DNA of 64,000 bases from Elusimicrobia bacterium GWA2_66_18 (GTDB lineage Bacteria > Elusimicrobiota > Elusimicrobia > UBA1565 > UBA9628). Each line of letters starts with the position of its first letter. Position 1 is the first letter of the stretch. Location of the stretch: the NCBI GenBank assembly GCA_001799675.1, contig MGTX01000004.1, positions 1-64,000 on the forward strand, written 5' to 3'. The notes beneath the pieces were generated by a model, which was given only the letters and a program-made list of their open reading frames with translations, had not been told where the DNA came from and did not search any database. The translations under genes were made by a program, and so were the position numbers. This document shows positions 30,536 to 33,516 of this stretch, in pieces.

Positions 30536-31243
30536 ATGGCATTTTCGCGACGCGACGCGCCCAACTGCGACTGGTGTCCATTCCGCAGGAACTGCTTTTA
30601 TGAACTCCTCGGCACCAAGGAGGCCAAGAAGGCCTGGCGAGACATGCGCCTGGCGAACCCCTTCAAGCGCGGCGAGGTCATCTTCCACGAGGGCACCCTG
30701 CCCCAGGGCGTCTACGTCGTCTGCACCGGTAAGGTTAAGGTCTACAAGTCCAGCCGCACCGGCCAGCAACTGACCACCCGCGTCGAGTCCCCCGGAGACC
30801 TGGTCGGCCACGTCACGATGCTGGCCGATGACGGCCAGTACACCTCGACCGGCGAGGCCCTGGAGCCCAGCGTGGTGTCCATGATGGACAAGAAGACCTT
30901 TTGCGACTTCCTCTTCCGCTTCCCGCAGGCCGCCCTGGTGCTCATGCGCGAGTTGTCCCGAGACGTGCGCCGCGGCGAGAACAAGGCCCGCGACATCGCC
31001 TTCAAGCCCGCGCGCGGCCGCTTGGCCGACACCCTCCTGCGCATGATGGCTCCCAAGAAGCCCCACCCGGTGGTCGCCGGCATCAAGCGCCGCGATCTTG
31101 CCGAGATGGCGGGCCTCACCATCGAGACCACCGTCCGCCTCCTCAAGGATTTCGAGGAGCGCGAGATCCTGCACAAGCGGGAAAAGGACCTCGTCATCAT
31201 CGGCGAGGACCGCCTGCGCGCCCTCGCCGGCGCCGCCTCCTGA
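30536..31243 (+). CDS. Crp/Fnr-family regulator with N-terminal cysteine cluster
   Basis: 235 aa. The N-terminus has CDWCPFRRNC (Cys 11, 14, 20), the spacing of the first three cluster ligands of E. coli FNR. A cyclic-nucleotide-binding fold follows (GEVIFHEGTLPQGVYVVCTG) and a C-terminal winged helix with recognition segment RRDLAEMAGLTIETTVRLLK. The E-T-R type recognition helix suits TTGAC- or TTGAT-type half sites. The fourth FNR ligand, near residue 122, is not at the usual place. Cys123 (TFCDF) and Cys63 are alternatives. It may sense oxygen, NO or redox state. A perfect Fnr/Crp-type palindrome lies just downstream, before the repeat-peptide gene. Confidence 0.85.
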   Translation: MAFSRRDAPNCDWCPFRRNCFYELLGTKEAKKAWRDMRLANPFKRGEVIFHEGTLPQGVYVVCTGKVKVYKSSRTGQQLTTRVESPGDLVGHVTMLADDGQYTSTGEALEPSVVSMMDKKTFCDFLFRFPQAALVLMRELSRDVRRGENKARDIAFKPARGRLADTLLRMMAPKKPHPVVAGIKRRDLAEMAGLTIETTVRLLKDFEEREILHKREKDLVIIGEDRLRALAGAAS

Positions 31244-31298: not shown

Positions 31299-31312
31299 TT
31301 GACCTTGGTCAA
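31299..31312. promoter_or_regulatory. Fnr/Crp-type operator (perfect 14-bp palindrome)
   Basis: TTGACCTTGGTCAA is fully symmetrical and matches the Fnr/Anr consensus layout TTGAN6TCAA. It lies about 110 bp before the repeat-peptide start and 56 bp after the Fnr-like gene. The nearest -10-like box downstream is TACACT at 31372-31377, which would put the palindrome near -79. Confidence 0.7.
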
Positions 31313-31420
31313 TGAGTCGAATCAAGACGCTCGTTTGATCGCTCTCATTGGGTCATGCAACCCTGACGCGCTACACTGCCGTTGTCGCAAAAACGATTTA
31401 GACGGACAAGGAGAAAAACA

Positions 31421-31630
31421 ATGCTCAGCCTGATACTGACGGTCACGATGATGAACGCCGCTCCCGTCCCGCAGACGGCCCAGTTCCAGCCCTGCGTGTG
31501 GCCCAACAAGTGCGTGCAACAGCCTGTCGCCCAGTTCCAGCCTTGCGTGTGGCCCAACAAGTGCGCGCAGACCATCGCTCAGTTCCAGCCCTGCGTGTGG
31601 CCCAACAAGTGCGCAAGCAATAAAGCCTAA
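31421..31630 (+). CDS. Probably exported 69-aa peptide with three CX5C repeats
   Basis: The ATG at 31421 has a near-perfect AAGGAG. The first 16 residues (MLSLILTVTMMNAAPV) form a short signal-like segment lacking the usual basic residues. The rest is three identical copies of AQFQPCVWPNKC, separated by VQQPV and AQTI and ending ASNKA. Each repeat has two Cys five residues apart, so disulfide loops, metal binding or thioether modification are possible. The spacers differ while the repeats are invariant, as in multi-copy peptide precursors. An Fnr-type operator upstream and a strong terminator downstream make it a single-gene transcript. I recognise no family. A peptide signal, a RiPP-like precursor or a metal/redox-binding peptide are alternatives. 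Confidence 0.75.
   Translation: MLSLILTVTMMNAAPVPQTAQFQPCVWPNKCVQQPVAQFQPCVWPNKCAQTIAQFQPCVWPNKCASNKA
31478..31612 (+). repeat. Three 36-bp coding repeats
   Basis: Copies at 31478-31513, 31529-31564 and 31577-31612, differing only at silent positions (GCC/GCT and CCC/CCT). Spacers of 15 and 12 bp keep the reading frame. Confidence 0.9.
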
Positions 31631-31661
31631 GAGCCGAGCCTCACCATAACCAGCGATGCCG

Positions 31662-31695
31662 GAAAGCCCCGACCCCTCGGGGCTTTCTTTTTTTT
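31662..31695 (+). terminator. Strong intrinsic terminator of the repeat-peptide gene
   Basis: GAAAGCCCCGA and TCGGGGCTTTC pair over 11 bp around a 4-nt loop and are followed by eight T. Confidence 0.92.
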
Positions 31696-31731
31696 CATAC
31701 TATACCCAAGCCCGCATCCAGGAGACCCCCG

Positions 31732-33516
31732 ATGACCGTCAAGCTCGCCTTCGCCGCCCTGCTCGCCGCCGCAGCGGCCCGCGCCGCCGCGCCCGCGCCG
31801 ACCGTGGCGCAAGCCCAGGCATTCATCGAACGCGCCGAAAAGACCCTCGAGGACCTCAACACGAAGGACAACTTCGCCAACTGGGCGTACTCGACCTACA
31901 TCATCTACGACACGGAGAAACTGGCGGCGGCGGCCGACCTGGCCTACGCGGTCGAAACGGCGAAGCTGGCCGGGGAAGCCCTGAAGCACGAGAAGCTCGA
32001 CCTCCCCGCGGACGTGCGCCGCAAGATCCTCCTGCTGAAGCTCTCGGTCTCGGCGCCCGCGCCCGAGGACCCCCGGGAGCAGAAGGAACTCGCCGACATC
32101 CAGGCCTGGCTCCAGGGCGAGTACGGCAAAGGCAAATGGTGCCGCGCGGCGGACAAATGCCTGACCCTGCCGGACATGGAGGACATCCTGCGCGACAGCC
32201 GCGACCCGAAGGAGTTGCTCGAGGTCTGGAAGGGCTGGCGGACGGTCTCGCCGCCGATGCGCAGGAAGTACGAGCGCTTCGTGGAGCTCTCCAACAAGGG
32301 CGCGCGCGGCATGGGATTCGCGGACACGGGCGTGCTCTGGCGCTCACGCTACGACATGAGCCCGACCGCGTTCACGGCGGAGCTGGAGAGGCTCTGGGAA
32401 CAGCTCAAGCCCCTCTACGCCTCGCTGCACGCCTATACCCGCCACCGCCTCATCGAGAAGTACGGCAAGGAGGCGGTCGGCGACGACGGGCTCATCCCGG
32501 CGCACCTGCTCGGCAACATGTGGGCGCAGAGCTGGGAGAACGTCTACCCTCTCGTGGCGCCGCCCTCCTCGGACCCGGGCTACGACCTGACCAAGATCCT
32601 GGAGGCCCGCAAGACCGATGAGAAGGAGATGACGCGCATGGGCGAAAGGTTCTTCACCTCGCTCGGCTTCGAGCCCCTGCCTCCGACCTTCTGGGAGCGG
32701 TCCCTCTTCACCAAGCCCCGCGACCGGGAGGTCGTCTGCCACGCCTCGGCCTGGGACGTGGAGGACTCGCAGGACCTGCGCATCAAGATGTGCATTAAGC
32801 CCAACGCCGAGGACCTCGTCACAATCCACCACGAGCTGGGTCACAACTTCTACCAGCGCGCCTACGCCGCGCAGCCCTTCCTGCTGCGCGGCAGCGCCAA
32901 CGACGGCTTCCACGAGGCCCTCGGCGACACCATCGCGCTCTCCGTCACGCCGGAATACCTCAAGCAGATCGCCTTGGTCGACAAGGTCCCGGGCGCCGAG
33001 GGAGACCTTGGACTGCTCATGAAGATGGCCCTGGAGCGCGCGGCCTTCCTGCCCTTCGGATTGATGGTGGACCAGTGGCGCTGGAAAGTCTTCTCCGGCG
33101 AGGTCAAGCCGGAAGACTACAACAAGGCCTGGTGGGACTTGGCCGCCAAGTACCAAGGGGTCAAGCCTCCGGTCGAGCGCAGCGAGGCGGACTTCGACCC
33201 GGGGGCCAAGTACCATGTGGCGGCCAATGTGCCCTACACCCGCTACTTCCTGGCCCAGGTCCTACAGTTCCAATTCTATCGCGCCTTATGCGAGCAGACG
33301 GGCCATATCGGCCCCCTGCACCGCTGTTCCTTCTATAACGACAAGAAGGCCGGGGAGCGGCTCAACCGAATGATGGCCATGGGCGCCAGCCGCCCCTGGC
33401 CGGACGCGCTGGAGGCCATGACCGGAAGCCGGAAGATGGACGCGAACGCCATCACGGAGTATTTCGCTCCGCTGAAGATCTGGCTCGACGCGGAGAACGC
33501 CAAGCGCGCGAAGTAA
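31732..33516 (+). CDS. Secreted M2-family zinc peptidase (ACE-like peptidyl-dipeptidase)
   Basis: 594 aa. A signal peptide (residues 1-19, Ala-rich) is followed by an almost wholly helical M2 fold. The zinc site is [15 protein letters not shown] (HExxH) with the third ligand Glu in [14 protein letters not shown]-terminal conserved parts include [20 protein letters not shown] and [16 protein letters not shown]2 enzymes remove C-terminal dipeptides. This one should act in the periplasm or outside. A TACTAT-type promoter after the preceding terminator indicates separate transcription from the repeat-peptide gene. Trimming of that peptide is conceivable but unsupported. The downstream upp operon is convergent, with a 2-bp gap. 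Confidence 0.92.

Follow-up and report, generated by a model that had tools for sequence, protein, structure and literature searches.

The peptide gene in the window

The locus raises the question of what a very short reading frame, built from three identical cysteine-bearing units and placed behind FNR-type sites, could do for a bacterium. The window, that is, the whole stretch of 64,000 nucleotides analysed, corresponds to contig C4 of a 2.79-Mb genome, in which a genome search finds the peptide gene as a single copy. This gene for a probably exported repeat peptide (31421..31630, plus strand, 69 aa and a stop codon) has the product MLSLILTVTMMNAAPVPQTAQFQPCVWPNKCVQQPVAQFQPCVWPNKCAQTIAQFQPCVWPNKCASNKA and is preceded, shortly before its ATG, by the ribosome-binding site AAGGAG (31408..31413, plus strand). 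The product begins with an uncharged, hydrophobic, signal-peptide-like leader, MLSLILTVTMMNAAPVPQT (31421..31477), followed on the same strand by unit 1 (31478..31513), unit 2 (31529..31564) and unit 3 (31577..31612), each reading AQFQPCVWPNKC and separated by the spacers VQQPV and AQTI. The units are identical in protein, and their core DNA copies differ by one synonymous base. An intrinsic terminator with a 12-bp stem and a T run closes the gene (31661..31696, plus strand; stem 31661-31688, z = -4.7). All the elements on which the original prediction was built (the 69-aa frame, ribosome site, three repeats, spacers, terminator and operator) are present.

No Pfam or NCBIfam model matches the peptide, a profile search found no match in the PDB, and the string CVWPN does not occur in the literature searched, which also contains nothing relevant on Elusimicrobia together with FNR. 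AlphaFold2 returns a disordered chain for the peptide (pLDDT 49), a result uninformative for the structure of the loops.

An undescribed family of Cys-loop peptides

Judged from its sequence, the 69-aa frame belongs to a so far undescribed family of very small Cys-loop proteins that appear to be exported. The concern that no relative might carry conserved repeats is clearly dispelled by homologues in 36 of 58 relatives, divergent members from the profile search included, and a sample taken across the phylum gave matches at E <= 1e-4 in 30 of 295 genomes. The collected family comprises 56 members at 41 loci, the window included. It is known only from Elusimicrobiota and from one phage contig. 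The species scan covered 84,980 species with a single genome each; divergent relatives outside the phylum could be missed, because the scan patterns, [KQR]PCV[WF]PNxC and [AV][QK][FVI]x[PT]CV[WF]P[NK], are narrow. Two other matches were set aside: for one in Luteimonas (L100) the aligned stretch is the tail of an ordinary reading frame that has no Cys loops, and the match is attributed to chance, and one on a Bacillus pumilus plasmid is a WPEKVAGIVAKYQGST repeat without Cys, hence unrelated.

The family is defined by its loops, C-x-[WYF]-P-x-x-C, which number 174 across the 56 members, from one to five per protein. The Cys-Pro-Cys frame (C-x-x-P-x-x-C) is kept in every one of them, which bears out the view of an undescribed repeat peptide, and the residue before Pro is W, Y or F in 166 and M, A or T in the other 8. 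Loop 1 begins at residue 23-28 in 52 of the 56 members, homologue start codons having been picked by rule, with a few uncertain. Ala, Val, Pro, Glu and Thr abound in the linkers between loops, and the genes stand alone or in tandem groups of two or three, every copy having a promoter of its own. Values of dN/dS are 0.07-0.15 in one group of closest orthologues, which indicates purifying selection, and 0.12-0.86 where the pairs are paralogous or further diverged. The low values in that orthologue group, together with the association of perfect operator boxes with family genes in 46 of 47 cases described below, argue that the family is not a product of chance.

The leader and probable export

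A hydrophobic core lies near the N-terminus (positions 4-10), as the Sec pathway requires, and the other hallmarks of a signal peptide are less regular. The basic n-region is missing, with no Lys or Arg among residues 1-12 in any of the 56 members, and a simple signal-peptidase rule for an AxA-type cleavage site is satisfied directly before unit 1 in only 21 of 56. In its charge the leader is unlike the ordinary signal peptides encoded at the same loci, for example that of the M2 peptidase. Two other genes of the same genome that stand behind a box start with the leader-like sequences MINLFLAFATLAVPAFSQ and MENNTLTLSILLLAASAHAQ. We infer that the leader is a signal peptide of unusual charge and that the peptide is likely exported, as had originally been proposed, a view supported by the hydrophobic leader and by a phage copy with a textbook signal peptide.

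Promoter architecture and FNR-type sites

Site 1, TTGACCTTGGTCAA (31299..31312), is conserved upstream of homologues and is the sole exact copy in the 2.79-Mb genome. It had been described as a perfect palindrome, which holds for its arms, TTGACC and GGTCAA, but not for its central TT. A degenerate site 2, ATGAGTCGAATCAA (31312..31325), follows 13 bp after site 1, and in the homologues a second box likewise stands 13-14 bp from the first. Site 3, TTGATCGCTCTCAT (31335..31348), occupies the class II activator position, with its centre 30 nt before the -10 element TACACT (31372..31377, plus strand), i.e., at about -41.5. Sites 2 and 3 are weaker than site 1 in the window, and no sigma-70 -35/-10 pair was found in the window promoter. 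The predicted Fnr-type operator is therefore present, but as an array of sites and not as a single one, with the last in the class II activator position. Among the FNR-activated promoters of E. coli, the majority have their site at about -41.5 (PMC3688515), and the E. coli FNR box is TTGATNNNNATCAA (PMC4505428); the peptide promoter shows the class II arrangement, an FNR box at about -41.5 before a -10 element.

The expected co-occurrence of box and peptide is pronounced throughout the family. Perfect TTGAYN4RTCAA boxes number 47 in 476,696 bp of loci, which were selected for the peptide but contain an internal control in their remaining genes. Of the 47 boxes, 46 stand at most 200 nt upstream of a family gene, and the same sequence contains a single copy of the reversed motif. 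Counted by gene, a perfect box stands within 200 nt of 39 of the 56 family genes, with 0.03 expected in shuffles. In 49 of 56 promoters the centre of a TTGWYN5TCMT site falls 29-31 nt ahead of a -10-like hexamer, or at about -41.5, a narrow spread that is partly set by the search, because only spacers of 22 to 24 nt were searched. One or two additional sites lie further upstream in family promoters, 13-14 bp and about 23 bp apart. In 17 of the 49 peptide promoters (e.g., L034, L035, L041 and L042) the -10 element ends 6 nt before the ATG, and a leaderless mRNA is therefore predicted for these; in the window the distance from -10 to ATG is 43 nt and includes the ribosome site. FNR-type regulation of the peptide is thus well supported by promoter comparison. 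Since nearly all copies stand behind an FNR-type switch, production of the peptides probably begins once oxygen is exhausted.

The FNR-type regulator and other neighbours

Upstream of the peptide lies a gene for a 235-aa regulator of the FNR type (CRP/FNR superfamily; 30536..31243, plus strand), with cysteines in the order C11-X2-C14-X5-C20 and a further one at C63. It combines the cyclic-nucleotide barrel and the Crp helix-turn-helix (Pfam cNMP_binding, 1.5e-19; HTH_Crp_2, 8e-12), and its residues 8-234 align with solved FNR regulators (5e44/8qto). The best NCBIfam match is Fnr, at a score below the cut-off (65 vs 228 bits). C11, C14 and C20 match the FNR spacing CX2CX5C and are invariant in all 23 sequences that reach the N-terminus; the fourth invariant Cys is residue 63, and none is conserved where C122 lies in the E. 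coli protein. The roles of E209, S212 and R213 in the FNR recognition helix have been described (PMC4505428). Here Glu and Arg are kept (E209, R213), and Val replaces Ser212 of the E. coli sequence. It should be noted that oxygen sensing by this regulator is argued by analogy, because of the Val in place of Ser212 and the position of C63 away from that of C122.

A regulator of this cluster occurs at 26 of the 41 loci, in most of them adjoining the peptide gene, which supports the earlier suggestion that the adjacent FNR-like gene is the probable regulator of the peptide. The own genome holds no second regulator-like protein above 30% identity, and an orthologue or relative is found in 49 of 58 relatives at E <= 1e-25. 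Autoregulation of the FNR gene was considered as the main reason for the boxes and rejected, because peptide paralogues without an adjacent FNR gene keep their boxes and FNR genes in peptide-less genomes have none downstream: in G002, G012 and G015, which lack the peptide and retain the FNR gene, the 220 nt that follow the regulator gene contain no box.

Downstream of the peptide the window carries a gene for an M2 (angiotensin-converting-enzyme-like) peptidase with a signal peptide (31732-33516; E = 3.6e-223). This gene adjoins the peptide only in the window and in one relative (G004), and a general processing pair of peptide and M2 peptidase was rejected, since the two are neighbours at 2 of 41 loci. 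A gene for a secreted TPR protein lies upstream of the FNR-type gene at 23 loci (e.g., L034:4764-6002) and is absent from that position in the window. No recurrent neighbour was found beyond the FNR regulator, the TPR protein and housekeeping-type genes across the 41 loci, whose neighbours are partly annotated. DsbA-like genes were found, and VKOR was not found.

Other genes behind the same promoter form

A stricter class II pattern gave 6 matches in the own genome, against none for the reversed control: the peptide, PEP carboxykinase, Sdh_cyt (a membrane subunit of succinate dehydrogenase/fumarate reductase), a Pro-rich exported protein and two cases that convince less. A perfect box also stands just before a 2-oxoacid:ferredoxin oxidoreductase gene of this genome. 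These class II matches, which beside the peptide include genes of anaerobic or central metabolism, and the oxidoreductase box fit with anaerobic activation, and the shared promoter form likely marks an FNR regulon in Elusimicrobiota.

The Pro-rich protein represents a second exported family behind an FNR class II promoter; its members are Cys-free, 150-185 aa long and end like LPExDLExEIGAY. It is found in the own genome at G000:C17:56590-57157 (L139:1598-2068) and at L182-L195, in 20 of 58 relatives altogether, 19 of which also have the repeat peptide. In the peptide-less genomes G026 and G032 (L197, L198, L199 and L200) other exported proteins stand behind FNR class II-like sites, one of them a 53-aa protein ending in PPPCAINHTCH, which contains a CX5C.

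A single-loop copy on a phage contig

A family copy with one loop is encoded on the 32.7-kb IMG/VR contig IMGVR_UViG_3300009285_003361 (L234:1930-2110), adjoining the small and large terminase subunits, after which portal and head proteins follow. It reads MKILTLILTVTILAILLFGIPARA-QFQPCVWPNICAQ, a standard-looking signal peptide and then one unit. Its signal peptide has a basic n-region and a cleavage site, ending in ARA before QFQPCVWPNIC. Upstream lie the FNR-type boxes TTGACGAAGGTCAA and TTGACCGAAATCAT, with TATGAA 22 nt after TTGACCGAAATCAT and the ATG 6 nt past TATGAA, so that a leaderless start is predicted. In the structural region of the same contig (L240:5105-18000 and L241:169-2429) several further proteins have signal-peptide-like starts. 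That a phage carries a copy suggests that a virus, too, can draw some benefit from the peptide.

Possible nature of the peptide

The explanation we prefer, and to which we give about an even chance, is that of an FNR-activated, exported, multivalent Cys-loop peptide whose mature part would be a flexible chain with three identical C-V-W-P-N-K-C loops. The regulator would hold an Fe-S cluster on C11, C14, C20 and a fourth ligand, and in the absence of oxygen would bind its sites and activate transcription, two steps for which the cysteine pattern and the promoter geometry argue well. The leader would then probably send the peptide through Sec. A seven-residue CX5C unit with an aromatic-Pro pair suggests a compact disulfide ring, and each unit might accordingly close around its aromatic-Pro turn; the pairing of the cysteines and the Ala- and Pro-containing linkers suggest an arrangement like beads on a string. 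Left unprocessed, the chain could finally act within the envelope or beyond the cell, where it might be a surface peptide or a multivalent binder of the anoxic state.

The same cysteines could instead remain reduced and form a periplasmic thiol/metal buffer of the anoxic state, binding a soft metal such as zinc or Cu(I) or scavenging oxidants or NO. The Cys pair in every loop, a redox-linked role that would fit FNR-type control and the failure to find VKOR all speak for such a buffer, but a structural turn is suggested by the Pro, which never varies, and the aromatic residue, which rarely does, and there is no further common metal ligand, His occurring in only 17 and Met in 4 of the 174 loops. 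The sparse neighbourhood, limited to the FNR regulator, the TPR protein and housekeeping-type genes, also counts against this explanation, and we regard it as unlikely, while ranking it next after the unprocessed multivalent peptide. Cutting of the chain into single-loop peptides for signalling or antagonism appears more doubtful still. Loops of one protein resemble each other more than they resemble those of other proteins (3.53 of 5 residues identical, against 3.16, matched in none of 1000 permutations; the sequences are related, so the test is indicative only), and the phage contig has a single-loop version. Yet no dedicated protease or transporter cluster recurs and the M2 peptidase is a neighbour at two loci only; the original idea of release as three copies is not supported, because no processing site is conserved in the linkers (6 of 118 have a dibasic site and 4 of 118 a GG). 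Least probable of the four is a RiPP precursor in which an enzyme encoded elsewhere would cross-link Cys or Trp in each unit. Short repeated cores behind a conserved leader would suit such a precursor, and W-P-N/H/R/K of the units presumably resembles the RiPP aromatic-x-acceptor triplet, which we take as a lead. However, no maturase-like cluster recurs among the partly annotated neighbours of the 41 loci, a similar leader is found on larger exported proteins, and M, A or T replaces the aromatic residue in 8 of 174 units.

It is a speculative extension, which we hold to be rather improbable, that the peptides form an oxygen-gated extracellular system of Elusimicrobiota. Its CxWPxxC loops, specific to each lineage, would serve recognition, antagonism or signalling from cell to cell and would have diversified by duplication of genes and units, and a phage would have taken up a gene with one loop that retains the FNR-type promoter. 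Whichever chemistry applies, the unit is short enough to be synthesized, and disulfide formation, metal binding or modification is directly testable. The locus adds an undescribed small-protein family, whose regulation the sequence reveals with uncommon clarity, to a phylum of which few members are in culture, and points to a likely Elusimicrobiota FNR regulon and its promoter form, which offer a handle on the oxygen response.

Comparison with known systems

Two of the closest parallels concern regulation. With the FNR/ANR regulators (5e44/8qto) the window regulator shares the CRP fold, the N-terminal CX2CX5C and the Glu and Arg of the recognition helix, whereas it differs in the Val at Ser212, in C63 as its fourth invariant Cys and in its sub-cut-off NCBIfam score. 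Its probable target promoters share with the E. coli class II promoters of narG, dmsA and nirB a TTGAY-N4-RTCAA-type site at about -41.5 before the -10 element, but they group two to four sites at distances of 13-14 bp and about 23 bp, have a promoter-proximal site that ends in TCAT, and drive a small exported peptide.

The product itself recalls two kinds of systems. Pheromone- or RiPP-type multi-copy precursors have a leader and tandem identical units with variable spacers, as the peptide does, but the peptide lacks a processing motif, and no adjacent maturation or export enzyme was found. Small secreted Cys-rich bacterial proteins are, like the peptide, short and leader-bearing with their cysteines in pairs, while the peptide matches nothing in Pfam, NCBIfam or the PDB.
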